Shown here: positions 16,052 to 21,769 of the stretch, in pieces
How positions within the stretch are numbered: the first letter of the stretch is position 1
Layout: each line of letters begins with the position of its first letter
Source of the DNA: a virus
Length of the DNA stretch: 48,392 nucleotides
Strand: one strand, 5' to 3'
IMG/VR virus record: IMGVR_UViG_3300010370_000057
Location: 1 to 48,392 of that record
The notes under the pieces: model-generated
Database searches by the model: none
What the model was told of the DNA's origin: nothing
The model's input: the letters and a program-made list of their open reading frames with translations, nothing else
Made by a program: the position numbers and the translations under genes

Positions 16052-16822
16052 ATGGCACAAAGAGATGGAAGTGGATTTCCAAAAATAGGACCACTTTATT
16101 TAAAAATGACTACACCAAGAGAAGATGGTGCTGTCGGGATGCCAGGTGCTAGGGATATTTTTGGTGCATTATCAATAACAAGTCAGTTTAAAGTTGCATT
16201 GCACCTAACAAATTCTACATCAGAAGACGATCCATTGATGCGATGGTTAACGAATTCTGGATTAACTAATGATTTGATAGTAAATTCATATTATGATTTT
16301 TATTGCTCGGAAGCAGTAATACCAGGGGCATCATTTGAAGTTGCAGAAGAATCAGGAAGTCGTCAGGGTATAATTGAAAGAATACCAACAAGAAGAGTTT
16401 ATGCTCCAGTAACTTTAACATTCTATGTAGATAATGATTATAGACTTATTCGTTTATTTGAAGAATGGATGAATTTTATTAATCCACTTCATGGGACTTC
16501 TGGTGAATATGGGGTTTCAAAAAATGGGTTTGGTAATGCTAAAGAAAGAAATGATTTCTTTAGAATGAGATATCCCGATGAATATAAGAGAATTATTAGT
16601 ATTGTTAAATTTGAAAGAAATTTTATGTCCACTCCAAATTTAAATGGTGGACAATTAGGTAATGTTCCATCTATCACTTACCGATTGATTGACGCATTTC
16701 CAACAAATATAACAGCACTTCCAGTTTCATATGAGGGAAGCACTATAACAAAGACCACTGTAGAATTTAGTTATTCCAGATATGTTTATGAGAAAAATAA
16801 TGGAACTAGAAATCTAATCTAA
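16052..16822 (+). CDS. Tail-tube-like protein, probably baseplate tube initiator gp54
   Basis: A 256-residue protein of the tail tube/gp54 type: AVIPGASFEVAEESG, IPTRRVYAPVTLTFYVDND, LFEEWMNFI, and at the end PVSYEGSTITKTTVEFSYSRY. In T4, gp54 sits on the gp48 cap and starts tube growth. Here gp48 is on the opposite strand close by, which fits a partner. It could also be a second tube protein. No convincing plus-strand promoter is seen in the short gap upstream. Confidence 0.65.
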   Translation: MAQRDGSGFPKIGPLYLKMTTPREDGAVGMPGARDIFGALSITSQFKVALHLTNSTSEDDPLMRWLTNSGLTNDLIVNSYYDFYCSEAVIPGASFEVAEESGSRQGIIERIPTRRVYAPVTLTFYVDNDYRLIRLFEEWMNFINPLHGTSGEYGVSKNGFGNAKERNDFFRMRYPDEYKRIISIVKFERNFMSTPNLNGGQLGNVPSITYRLIDAFPTNITALPVSYEGSTITKTTVEFSYSRYVYEKNNGTRNLI

Positions 16823-16853: not shown

Positions 16854-17585
16854 ATGCCTTTACCAAAGATTTCTACACCAACATATGAGTTGGAATTACC
16901 ATCAAATGGAAAGACTATAAAATATAGACCGTTTTTAGTTAAAGAAGAGAAAATTTTAATTATCGCATTAGAATCACAAGATACCAAACAGATTACTAAT
17001 GCGATAAAACAAGTTTTAAAGGAATGTATTCTAACAAAGGGAGTAAAGGTAGAAGAACTCCCAACATTTGATATTGAATATGTATTTTTAAATGTTAGGG
17101 GAAAATCAGTAGGGGAAAATATTGATTTGATTGTAACTTGCTATGATGATGATTCAAATACCCAAGTTCCAGTAACAATTTATATTGATGAAATTAAAGT
17201 CCAAAAAGATCCCGAACATTCTACTGATATTAAATTAGATAATAACTTAGTGATGAGGATGAAATATCCATCATTAGATCAATTTATCAAGAATAACTTT
17301 GATTTTAGTGATGCACAAAGTGAGAGTAATATCGAAAAGTCATTTGATATTATTGCATCATGTATTGATATGGTTTATAGTGATGAAGAATCTTGGGCAG
17401 CAGCAGATTGTACTAAAAAAGAATTGATAGAATTTATAGAACAAATGAATTCCAATCAATTTAAAAAGATTGAGAAATTTTTTGAAACAATGCCAAAACT
17501 TTCTCATACAATTAAAGTAAAAAATCCCAAAACTGGAGTTGTTAATGAAGTTACGTTGGAGGGATTAACGAGTTTTTTCGGTTAA
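16854..17585 (+). CDS. gp26: Baseplate hub assembly protein gp26
   Basis: A 243-residue member of the T4 baseplate family: PTYELELPSNGKTIKYRPF, LVKEEKILIIALES, then DIEYVFLNVRGKSVGE and the C-terminal zinc-ribbon-less domain (FFETMPKLSHTIKVKN). It acts in hub assembly, like the tail assembly chaperones of other phages. The gene ends with T-TTT-TTC (17573-17579), a canonical -1 slippery heptamer in the correct frame, six bases before... the stop at 17583. A -1 shift would fuse it to the next gene. Confidence 0.85.
   Translation: MPLPKISTPTYELELPSNGKTIKYRPFLVKEEKILIIALESQDTKQITNAIKQVLKECILTKGVKVEELPTFDIEYVFLNVRGKSVGENIDLIVTCYDDDSNTQVPVTIYIDEIKVQKDPEHSTDIKLDNNLVMRMKYPSLDQFIKNNFDFSDAQSESNIEKSFDIIASCIDMVYSDEESWAAADCTKKELIEFIEQMNSNQFKKIEKFFETMPKLSHTIKVKNPKTGVVNEVTLEGLTSFFG
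17573..17579 (+). promoter_or_regulatory. Possible -1 ribosomal frameshift site (T TTT TTC)
   Basis: In the gp26 frame the codons read AGT TTT TTC GGT TAA. A one-base backward slip gives CGG TTA ATT and then enters the ATG of the following gene in frame, without a stop. This is the arrangement of the G and GT tail chaperones in many phages. No obvious stimulatory hairpin was identified. Confidence 0.55.
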
Positions 17586-17587
17586 TT

Positions 17588-17770
17588 ATGTCTCATATGG
17601 ATCTTGAGGCATATTTTAGAATTAACTTTGCCCTCATGCAGTTCCATAAATACTCTTTGACTGAGATTGAAAATATGGTTCCTTGGGAAAGGGATATTTA
17701 CATTGGATTATTGCAGCAGCATATTGAAGACGAAAAACTGAAGCAACAACAGCAAGCACATGGCAATTAA
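17588..17770 (+). CDS. Small tail-assembly chaperone-like protein (60 aa)
   Basis: A helical 60-residue protein (DLEAYFRINFALMQFHKYSL, then MVPWERDIYIGLLQQHIEDE) ending in a Gln-rich tail. It starts two bases after the gp26 stop and lies in the -1 frame relative to gp26, downstream of a slippery heptamer. It may therefore be made both alone and as a gp26 fusion of about 305 residues. By position it corresponds to the hub catalyst gp51 or to the T part of GT chaperones. The end overlaps the next gene by 11 bases. Confidence 0.7.
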   Translation: MSHMDLEAYFRINFALMQFHKYSLTEIENMVPWERDIYIGLLQQHIEDEKLKQQQQAHGN

Positions 17771-19643
17771 ATCTGCCTTAAGACCAGAATCAATAGTAAA
17801 AAATAATCCAATAAGTTTGCAATCTGCTCAGAATTTTATTTCTGGGGGAGCACCATTGGGGTCTTCTGTAGTCTCCTCTGCTGCAAATAAAATTGTAGGA
17901 TTTCAACGTGCTGCTGTAAAACCAGTAACTCCTGATATTAATTCTATTGTAAGTACAATTTCTTCTAATATTTTAAATCAGGTAGATAATAGTATTAGAA
18001 ATGCTACGAATATAATTAATAAGCAAGTTGATGGAAAAATTGGGCAAGTAGAAGGAACAACAATAAATCAAATTCAACAAATTAGACAACAACAAGATTC
18101 TCAGGTAACTCAGTTACAAACTGTAATACAAAATATAAGGCAGCAAACTACAAATTTTGTCAAACAACTTTCTGATAATTATCAAAACAAAATAAGAGAA
18201 GTTGATTCGGCAAAACCATTAGGAATTCTAGATAAATTCTTAAAAGCATATCAAAATGCCTTTAGTTTTATAAAGTTTTTTGGAAATGGAAAAAATATAA
18301 AACAACTAAGAGAAGGTCTTAAAGCACTAAAGACTTCTTTTACTGAGAGTTTTGAAGTTGCAAAATTAATTAGACAAACTATAGTTAAAATAGTAAATCA
18401 ATTATCAAATTTACCACAGGCATCTCCTGGTAGAAGTCCAGGATTGAATTTGGATATTGATGTTCCAGGTGGACCACTTAGAAAAACTGCCCCAAAAACT
18501 GCAAGATTTGGAAGGAGGGGAGCAGGTCTTTTGGGATTGGGTCTTGGTGCTGTTGGTGGAGGAATGGCAGTTAATGCTCTTGCAGATACTGATAGATTGC
18601 AAAGTATGCCTCAAATTACTGATATTCCAACAGGTTTAGTTGATACATTTTCATTTATTGTTGATAAATTTGCAAATGCTGTTGAGGAGATGATAAAAGG
18701 TTCATCTACCAAACAAACACAACAACCATCAACTTCTTCCCCTGGAGGTGGAGCACCATCTGCCAAACCATCGTCCAATGCTCCTTCTCCTGGAGCAATG
18801 CCAACAGTTTCTGGTGAGGGAACTCCAGAACAACAAGCAATGTTGAAATCACTTAGATATGCAGAAGGAACATCTAAGAGTTATGGAACAATATTTGGAG
18901 GAAATGTAGTAAAAGAACTTGAGGAGGGAAAACTTACAGTTCAAGAAGTCATTAATATGGCAGACACAGGAAAACTTCCTCAAAGACTTGGGGGAGGAAC
19001 AGTTCCTGGATATGGAAAGGGTTCAAAAGCTACTGGTGCATATCAATTTATGCCATTCACTTTAGAAGATTTGATAAAAAGAGGAGCATTAAAAAAGGAT
19101 GAGCTATTCACTCCAGAAGCTCAAGATAGAGCAGCATTAGCATTAGCAGAAGGCAGAGGGGTAACTGCAGACTTACTTAAAAAAGAAGGATTCAGTGCTA
19201 ATATTGCTAATAAATTAGCACCAGTATGGGCATCTGTTCCAACTTTAAGTGGCAGAAGTTATTATGGACAACCAGTTAAGTCTCTTTCTAGTTTGCAAAA
19301 AATTTATAATAACTCATTAAATTTCAAGGTAACTCCAGATAAGGGCATGGGTGGACTAGGTGTTGACCCATCAATGTTTGCTCCAGACGAACGAGCGAAA
19401 TTGGCAATGAACATATCCCAACCACCACCGTCACAGGCAAAGCCATCAATAGTAGCATTACCTGGTCTTGCTGGTGGACAGTCACAACCTTCTGGTGGAG
19501 AAGGAGGTGCAGGACAAGTCATCGTCCCACCAACCAATCCTTTGGGTGATTCTGGACCATCTGTGCCACTCTTACCCTCATCAGACTCTGCTAATTTCTT
19601 AACAATGTATTCAAAAATAGTCTATAATATTGTTGACGGATAA
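17760..19643 (+). CDS. Large tail/hub protein with λ-endolysin-like transglycosylase domain
   Basis: A 627-residue protein. Residues about 50-200 are coiled-coil-like and Gln-rich, followed by a Pro/Gly linker and a hydrophobic Gly segment (LLGLGLGAVGGGMAVNA). Residues about 360-515 resemble λ endolysin R (GH104 lytic transglycosylase): LRYAEGTS with probable catalytic E369, then TGAYQFMPF, TPEAQDRAALAL and the end APVWASVP...YYGQPVKSL. The C-terminus has the motif GMGGLGVDPSMFAP, also found in the next protein. It should be a tail protein, perhaps the tape measure or a hub part, that opens the cell wall at infection. Confidence 0.8.
   Translation: MAIKSALRPESIVKNNPISLQSAQNFISGGAPLGSSVVSSAANKIVGFQRAAVKPVTPDINSIVSTISSNILNQVDNSIRNATNIINKQVDGKIGQVEGTTINQIQQIRQQQDSQVTQLQTVIQNIRQQTTNFVKQLSDNYQNKIREVDSAKPLGILDKFLKAYQNAFSFIKFFGNGKNIKQLREGLKALKTSFTESFEVAKLIRQTIVKIVNQLSNLPQASPGRSPGLNLDIDVPGGPLRKTAPKTARFGRRGAGLLGLGLGAVGGGMAVNALADTDRLQSMPQITDIPTGLVDTFSFIVDKFANAVEEMIKGSSTKQTQQPSTSSPGGGAPSAKPSSNAPSPGAMPTVSGEGTPEQQAMLKSLRYAEGTSKSYGTIFGGNVVKELEEGKLTVQEVINMADTGKLPQRLGGGTVPGYGKGSKATGAYQFMPFTLEDLIKRGALKKDELFTPEAQDRAALALAEGRGVTADLLKKEGFSANIANKLAPVWASVPTLSGRSYYGQPVKSLSSLQKIYNNSLNFKVTPDKGMGGLGVDPSMFAPDERAKLAMNISQPPPSQAKPSIVALPGLAGGQSQPSGGEGGAGQVIVPPTNPLGDSGPSVPLLPSSDSANFLTMYSKIVYNIVDG
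19341..19396 (+). repeat. Inter-gene repeat, copy 1 (GMGGLGVDPSMFAP segment)
   Basis: This stretch and 21484-21536 encode the same motif with high DNA identity. Both lie near the 3' ends of adjacent tail genes, suggesting duplication or exchange of a common docking segment. Confidence 0.7.
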
Positions 19644-21769
19644 TGGCAAAAGTAATTACATCTCCTCTGGTATCCTCATTTAATAGTATTGCTTCATTCA
19701 ATAGCAAGACTAAACGTGATTTATCTAATATGCAGTCTGAGTATAAATCTTTTTCTGCATTTTTAGTTAAAGAAAACAATTCACTTAATTCTATAAAATT
19801 ACCGACAAAAAGAAAAATAAAAGATTTAGCAAACTTAAATGTTGCTGGTAATTTTGGCAATGTTGGTAATTTGCTGGGTTCTTTGGTTAGTGGTGCTTTA
19901 GATGTTGGAAGTTTTCTTGGAAATATGTTTCCAGGAAAAGGAAGATTGGGGCAACCATCTAAAGCATCTGCAAAACCAGCAAAACCTATTCCAAGAGGTC
20001 AGAGTTTAAGATTCACTGGTTTGAGGTCAATCGGAATCGTAAACAGTATTTTTGCTGGTCTAGATTTTGCAACTGGTCTTGCTAGTGGAGAATCAATAGG
20101 AAAGGCAGCAGCAGGAACTGGTGGAGCACTTGCAGGAAGTTTACTTGGAGGTGCTATTGGTCAGTCATTGATACCAATTCCAGGAGTAGGTTTTGTTATT
20201 GGTAGCATGGCTGGAAATTTTATTGGTGGATTTGCTGCAGATAGGGCATATGAAGGGGTTACTGGAGAAAAGTCACTAGAGCAAAAGCAGAAAGAAAGAC
20301 TTAAAGCACAAGAACAAAAACAAAAAGGATTATCAGAAGGAAGTGGTGGATTTAAAAATGCGTTAGATAAATTTTCAAGTGTTGTGGATAAGTTTAGCAA
20401 CTTTGCAATGGGATTTTCTGTGTCTGGTGGAGAAATAGGACCAGGAACTTATACTGATAATATTTCTGCAGACTCAAATGATTTAGGTCCTGGTGTAAAT
20501 GACCAGGGGGTTACTGATGCCAATTACCCAGGATTTGATAATGTCGAAAGAGTTGCTCCTTTTGTAACTGGACACGTAAGTACTTATGGTGGAGCACAAT
20601 TTGGAGCATCAAGAGGTGGTGGCAGAGTACATGCTGGACAAGATATTGCTGGACAAAAAGCAGGAGATCCAGTTTTAGCAGCAATGGCAGGAACTGTCGT
20701 TGAAGTTGGTCGTGGATATGCATGGCAAAATGGTGGAGGAAGTAGTCAAATAATTGGAATCAAACATAAAGATGGAAGTATGACTAGATATGTTCATGTT
20801 ATGTCAAATGTTTCAGTTGGAAAAGAAGTTAAAACTGGGCAAAAAATAGGAACAATTTCACCCGCAGATAAAGCAAGTTCTCAAGATTTCCCACATTTGC
20901 ATTTTGAACTTTATAATACCTCTGGAAAAATAATTGACCCAAGACCATTTTTAAGAACTGCTCCAAAAACCCCAGCAGTTGCTCCGATAAAAACGGGAAC
21001 TCAAGCAATGAGTTCTCCTGGTGGTTCTATGCAAGGTAAACTTAGTGCAAATGATATTATGTCTGCTCCAATGTTAACTATCGGAGATAGTATAGCAAAA
21101 GGGTCCAAAGATACTTCTGGATCTCTTGGAACTGCAAAAGTTGGAGCAACACCAAAAGATGTTATGGGAATGCTTCAGGGTCAAGACCTAAAGGGAAAAC
21201 TTGTTAGATTATCTTCTGGTATTTCTAATGACACTTCTGATTTGTCAACTGTTCGTCAACAATTGCAATATGCCCAAAAAATGGGAGCAAAGGGTGTCCA
21301 ATTAATGGGAACAAGTGTTGATAGAGCAGATTTATCCCCATTAAATGCAAAGTTGCAAGCACTTGCAAATGAGTTCCCAGGATTTGTTCAGTTTGGTGGT
21401 GGATTTAATGCTAAAGATAAAGTTCATCCAGATTACAAAAAGTATAATGAAAAACTTCAAAACTTATTAAACCGTGGATCTGGTGGAATGGGTGGATTGG
21501 GTGTTGACCCATCCATGTTTGCCCCAGAAGAGTTATTGAAGTTAGGAAAAAATATTTCAGATTATCCAGAATACAATTCTCCAGGTTCCTCTATAGTTTT
21601 AATACCAGTGGGACAACAATCCCAATCTAGTGCTAATGGAATTCCTTCAGTCACAGTTCCTTCTGGTAGTTCGTCAAATTCTGCTCCAGTTGTAATGGGA
21701 ACTCCACAATCACAAGTGGTAAATAGTTTAATGAAATCTCTTCTCTTAACTAATCTTTCTCAAACATAA
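19643..21769 (+). CDS. Large tail protein with M23 peptidase and SGNH hydrolase domains
   Basis: A 708-residue protein. The first part has a Gly-rich hydrophobic region like a tape-measure membrane segment (GALAGSLLGGAIGQSLI). An M23 zinc endopeptidase follows, with ligands H330 and D334 (HAGQD) and H418/H420 (HLHFE). Then comes a complete SGNH hydrolase: GDS (S483), G526...N529-D530, and DKVH (D592, H595). The C-terminus repeats GMGGLGVDPSMFAP from the preceding protein. M23 would cut peptide cross-links and SGNH might remove acetyl or other ester groups from wall or surface sugars. It overlaps the previous stop by one base. Confidence 0.85.
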   Translation: MAKVITSPLVSSFNSIASFNSKTKRDLSNMQSEYKSFSAFLVKENNSLNSIKLPTKRKIKDLANLNVAGNFGNVGNLLGSLVSGALDVGSFLGNMFPGKGRLGQPSKASAKPAKPIPRGQSLRFTGLRSIGIVNSIFAGLDFATGLASGESIGKAAAGTGGALAGSLLGGAIGQSLIPIPGVGFVIGSMAGNFIGGFAADRAYEGVTGEKSLEQKQKERLKAQEQKQKGLSEGSGGFKNALDKFSSVVDKFSNFAMGFSVSGGEIGPGTYTDNISADSNDLGPGVNDQGVTDANYPGFDNVERVAPFVTGHVSTYGGAQFGASRGGGRVHAGQDIAGQKAGDPVLAAMAGTVVEVGRGYAWQNGGGSSQIIGIKHKDGSMTRYVHVMSNVSVGKEVKTGQKIGTISPADKASSQDFPHLHFELYNTSGKIIDPRPFLRTAPKTPAVAPIKTGTQAMSSPGGSMQGKLSANDIMSAPMLTIGDSIAKGSKDTSGSLGTAKVGATPKDVMGMLQGQDLKGKLVRLSSGISNDTSDLSTVRQQLQYAQKMGAKGVQLMGTSVDRADLSPLNAKLQALANEFPGFVQFGGGFNAKDKVHPDYKKYNEKLQNLLNRGSGGMGGLGVDPSMFAPEELLKLGKNISDYPEYNSPGSSIVLIPVGQQSQSSANGIPSVTVPSGSSSNSAPVVMGTPQSQVVNSLMKSLLLTNLSQT
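21484..21536 (+). repeat. Inter-gene repeat, copy 2 (GMGGLGVDPSMFAP segment)
   Basis: Second copy of the segment at 19341-19396; most differences are at third codon positions. Confidence 0.7.

Follow-up and report, generated by a model that had tools for sequence, protein, structure and literature searches.

Conserved signals for a probable -1 ribosomal frameshift between the gene 26 and gene 51 regions of cyanophages and related viruses

Introduction

In E. coli dnaX, an SD-like element lies approximately 10 nt upstream of the heptamer A AAA AAG and a stem-loop lies downstream of it. For phages, a 2022 abstract by Vladimirov and coworkers reportedly names T4 genes 26 and 51 and describes frameshifting in several other T4-like groups. 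The study (Vladimirov, Gautam and Davidson 2022, Virology 566:9-15) is cited for poly-T sites in the TAC-N genes of T4-like phages (PMC12846349) and for the two-gene solution of T4 (PMC10885494). As far as these citations convey it, the principle of frameshifting in T4-like phages was already published in 2022 and, therefore, the case presented here is less new than a preliminary description of the same DNA had held. Beyond what these citations convey, the details added here are a cassette with all of its signals and the absence, in many relatives, of an early start codon for gp51. A literature search for frameshifting in cyanophage gp26 gave matches that, by title, concern unrelated phages.

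The frameshift of lambda G/GT (Xu, Hendrix and Duda) is reviewed in PMC5009743, where the G and GT proteins are noted to be absent from virions. TAC frameshifting has been described in Vandenendeviridae and Andersonviridae (PMC12846349), which are phage families other than that of the virus studied here. In a review of T4, gp26 and gp51 are named as chaperones of hub assembly (PMC3004832).

The locus compared with these systems lies in IMG/VR record IMGVR_UViG_3300010370_000057; the window is the whole stretch of DNA that was analysed, positions 1 to 48,392 of that record. The window has the same 26 and 51 families as the T4-like TAC-N/TAC-NC pairs and the same predicted pairing of a short with a long form, to the extent that the citations describe them. 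Its TAC-N/TAC-NC traits are the PF12322 match of gp26, an open domain in another frame that is fused in relatives, and a slippery site in register. Both flanking elements of a dnaX-like cassette are present, an SD-like GGAGG 10 nt 5' of the heptamer and a stem-loop 3' of it, but the heptamer is T TTT TTC instead of that of dnaX. The putative site also resembles lambda G/GT, where the -1 shift is likewise near the end of a short chaperone gene, which in lambda lies between the tail tube and tape measure genes. A tube-family gene of the window is at the place of V, and two large genes, one of which may be the tape measure, are at the place of H (tape measure). The slippery sequence differs from that of lambda, and the likeness in fold is weak and is to the HK97 chaperone.

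Results

Anatomy of the locus

Gene 26 of the window ends with ACG AGT TTT TTC GGT TAA, in which a single sense codon, GGT, separates the heptamer from the stop. The preliminary description had placed T TTT TTC in the zero frame of gp26 near this GGT TAA, with a -1 shift that reads into a 60-aa gene without a stop and with that gene in exactly the -1 frame. All of this was borne out, as seen in Table 1. From the heptamer, the -1 reading is TTT TTT CGG TTA ATT ATG TCT and remains open until the stop at 17768-17770. The predicted -1 product at the junction is LTSFFRLIMSHMDLEAYF. Predicted tryptic peptides for the window are TGVVNEVTLEGLTSFFR and LIMSHMDLEAYFR for the shifted product and TGVVNEVTLEGLTSFFG for the end of the unshifted one.

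Table 1. Positions of the features of the gene 26-51 locus and its neighbours in the window
Feature	Position	Strand	Details
Tail-tube family protein (gp54/tube like)	16052..16822	+	PF23849 E 3.3e-15; phrog_45 tail tube E 1.9e-35
Gene 26 (gp26, putative TAC-N)	16854..17585	+	243 aa, zero frame; PF12322 E 1.8e-73, phrog_150 E 9.8e-81
SD-like GGAGGG	17558..17563	+	GGAGG part, 17558-17562, ends 10 nt before heptamer
Slippery heptamer T TTT TTC	17573..17579	+	Zero frame of gp26
-1 extension with gp51 (putative TAC-C) domain	17579..17770	+	phrog_634 E 8.4e-27; phrog_150 C-terminus E 3.2e-5
gp26 zero-frame TAA stop	17583..17585	+	Would be skipped by a -1 shift
Stem-loop	17587..17613	+	Arms 17587-17595 TATGTCTCA and 17605-17613 TGAGGCATA; 7 nt after heptamer
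gp51 annotated-style ORF	17588..17770	+	60 aa
627-aa protein, lysozyme-like region	17760..19643	+	phrog_90 E 1.1e-27; first of two large genes
708-aa protein, M23 peptidase domain	19643..21769	+	PF01551 E 1.8e-19; weak phrog_794 tail length tape measure E 0.003

The frequency of the heptamer was dropped as evidence, since the window contains 32 copies of TTTTTTC compared with 35.7 expected. Given this lack of enrichment, only the place, phase and conservation of the heptamer can carry the claim of a frameshift.

Conservation of the heptamer and the reading frame

Conservation was examined in 367 loci with a readable gp26 stop, taken from IMG/VR scans and annotated phage records. Of these related loci, 364 have the gp51 region in the -1 frame; the remainder are two loci at a contig edge and Stenotrophomonas phage IME-SM1. 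T6N was in register in 361/367 loci, the six others being IME-SM1, a contig in which gp26 stops prematurely and four loci of the Ackermannviridae type. The heptamer and the frame thus hold in relatives, which had been proposed as the check on the site. Conservation spans cyanophages and phages of Pelagibacter, Methylophilales, Caulobacter, Sinorhizobium, Vibrio, Pseudomonas, Stenotrophomonas and Ochrobactrum.

For codon-level comparisons, the loci other than Ackermannviridae, IME-SM1 and the broken contig were grouped at 80% identity into 134 clusters, with no selection on the heptamer. The codon preceding the first Phe has T as its third base in 134/134 clusters while the encoded amino acid varies, and the first Phe is TTT in all 134, where codon usage predicts 87. 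These fixed third bases hold also in two sets of more distant clusters, 63 and 37 in number. The run of six T is retained even where the second codon is TTA (Leu) and not Phe. The place, phase and conservation of the heptamer exceed chance. A scan using a very diverse gp26 alignment gave no usable pattern.

A few other codon columns of gp26, notably Leu3 and Arg82, show a strong third-base bias, yet are not fixed. Leu3 (mostly TTA; 16860-16862) and Leu13 (mostly TTG; 16890-16892) have a synonymous bias with a z-score comparable to that of the slippery site, perhaps due to an effect on initiation.

Two kinds of exceptions were seen. The Ackermannviridae-type loci (L087, 2298-2310; L088, 2160-2172; L116; L120) have a gp51-like domain in the -1 frame and no T6 run, and their genes end in NTT TTC or CTT TTT; perhaps they rely on T TTC as a weaker site or on a different mechanism. 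IME-SM1 (L093, approximately 2230-2334) also has no T6 run. Relative to its annotated gp26, which extends beyond the usual stop, the gp51 domain is in the +1 frame. Either the T run differs here by one base or the change is real.

Sequences flanking the site

GAGG was found approximately 10 nt upstream of the heptamer in 82/134 clusters (61%), compared to a background of 285 in 27300 comparable gp26 positions (1.0%). Glu236 of gp26 is encoded by GAG rather than GAA at 78 to 24, when GAG makes up 30% overall. The SD-like GGAGGG is likely the upstream stimulator.

Downstream of the site, the mean folding energy of 60-nt stretches reached a minimum of -12.9 kcal/mol, with values of roughly -6 to -10 across the 300 nt upstream. 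Shuffling the synonymous codons of the extension weakened the downstream fold (mean z -1.98), and this test, conducted on all 134 clusters, is the cleaner of the two tests of the stem. In the other, 49 sequences of the window's clade gave an 11-pair stem with 88.5% of cells paired, whereas slid versions had 27-48%; in 14 cells both sides had changed (compensatory). These 49 were picked partly by eye for resemblance and one register was tested, so that this result leans towards that stem. Other clades have different stems at about the same place. RNAalifold with 53 mixed-clade sequences gave no single structure because the clades use different registers. The stem-loop at 17587-17613 is, on these folding comparisons, likely the downstream stimulator.

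One could suppose that the change of frame comes from slippage of RNA polymerase on the T run and not from the ribosome, and some relatives do have longer runs, e.g. GTTTTTTTTAA in HTVC008M. However, most loci have only six T, which is short for polymerase slippage, and the fixed spacing of the SD-like element together with the 3' stem-loop points to a ribosomal event. We consider polymerase slippage a very improbable reading of the site.

gp51 as a separate gene

A further explanation is that gp51 is a separate gene translated through reinitiation, with the T run merely being the codons of a conserved Phe-Phe end. Its ATG at 17588 is 2 nt past the TAA of gp26, an early ATG is seen in the extension in 74/134 clusters, and databases list gp51 as a gene. 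However, 58/134 clusters have no ATG, GTG or TTG among the first eight codons after the shift. With no gp51 start before the conserved core, only a frameshift yields the whole domain in these clusters. The annotated gp51 start lies inside the conserved core in HTVC008M, Melnitz-2, C48C1 and S-RIM2. The ATG of the window falls within the conserved stem, at a position where relatives have Leu. Also against reinitiation are third bases that are fixed more than the protein requires, a gp51 frame that is -1 throughout apart from the three loci named above, and the fused form of T4. It is therefore very improbable as the general explanation, although in the window, which has the ATG, separate translation is possible alongside frameshifting.

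In ACG-2014j, ACG-2014d, S-CAM1 and ACG-2014b (L111, L113, L114 and L115), a gp51 domain lies unannotated between gp26 and the next gene, approximately 180 nt after gp26, apparently because it has no start codon. The shift was described beforehand as usually unannotated, and indeed no public record examined joins both genes and several omit gp51 altogether.

Comparison with T4

The small ORF matches phrog_634, "baseplate hub assembly catalyst" (gp51). It also matches phrog_150, the family of gp26, at the 40 C-terminal positions, and therefore some members of that family hold both parts in one protein. In T4 gp51 (249 aa), an N-terminal PF12322 is followed by a C-terminal gp51 domain, and the protein spans positions 13-280 of 282 in phrog_150, while the match of T4 gp26 stops at 235. 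Both T4 proteins thus carry PF12322, as does gp26 of the window, and T4 gp51 has the domain order and junction of the predicted fusion: at the junction, VFKLLVNPDEIFTFYQIN of T4 aligns with FFRLIMSHMDLEAYFRIN of the predicted frameshift product.

In contrast to the single locus with a slippery run in the window, T4 has two genes on opposite strands, and its gene 26 reads AAA GAG TTC TTT GAG with the T6 run absent. T4 was the only one among 25 phage genomes searched to have two PF12322 genes. The simplest history suggested by these sequences would be an ancestral frameshift whose place was taken, in the T4 group, by a copy that had been duplicated and fused, in agreement with what is cited from Vladimirov et al. 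2022 (PMC12846349, PMC10885494).

Gene order and predicted fold

The gene order is tube, 26, 51 and two large lysin/tape-measure-like genes, the second of which has weak matches to tape measures (Table 1); it resembles V-G-T-H of lambda. Both large genes carry peptidoglycan-cutting domains at the expected place of the tape measure, and one of them may be that gene.

The predicted model of gp26 has a pLDDT of 91. For its first 90 residues, the best structural match was the uncharacterised 3fgx (Z 8.0). Next came 2ob9, the tail assembly chaperone of HK97, with Z 7.8 over 84 residues (rmsd 4.1, 8% identity), values that a common arrangement can also give. YqbN 3klu (Z 7.1) and 5ir0, of unknown function (Z 4.8), were also matched, and the next match was an unrelated toxin-immunity complex (Z 4.4). 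Foldseek of the model against PDB alone found nothing significant. The likeness of gp26 to chaperones is supportive of a chaperone role, not conclusive. We infer a chaperone role from the gene order, the frameshift logic, the T4 review (PMC3004832) and this weak similarity in fold. The G/GT-type chaperone logic in the preliminary description is supported by the hard-wired T4 fusion and the resemblance in gene order, and weakly by the fold.

Discussion

We consider it highly probable (roughly 0.93) that a -1 slip of the ribosome close to the end of gene 26 leads to two chaperones, one short and one long. Most ribosomes would terminate at the TAA and yield gp26, the TAC-N. A minority, with two Phe tRNAs on the heptamer, would move back by one base, presumably aided on the 5' side by pairing of GGAGG with 16S rRNA and on the 3' side by the stem-loop. 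Slipped ribosomes would yield a fusion of about 305 aa, the TAC-NC, composed of gp26 and the gp51 domain. If the two proteins act as G and GT of lambda do, the short form may coat the tape measure protein and the long form may recruit tail-tube subunits, with both departing before the tail is completed.

We also lean, with less confidence, towards the broader view that "gene 51" of cyanophages and their relatives is not a gene of its own and is reached only through the SD-like element, T6N and a clade-specific stem-loop. The T4 lineage would later have duplicated the gene, fused one copy in frame and lost the slippery run in the other.

With such conserved signals, the frameshift is open to direct test. 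Current annotation splits, truncates or omits what would be the second half of the long chaperone. These two genes of abundant marine viruses are more likely to encode tail assembly chaperones than structural "baseplate hub" parts.
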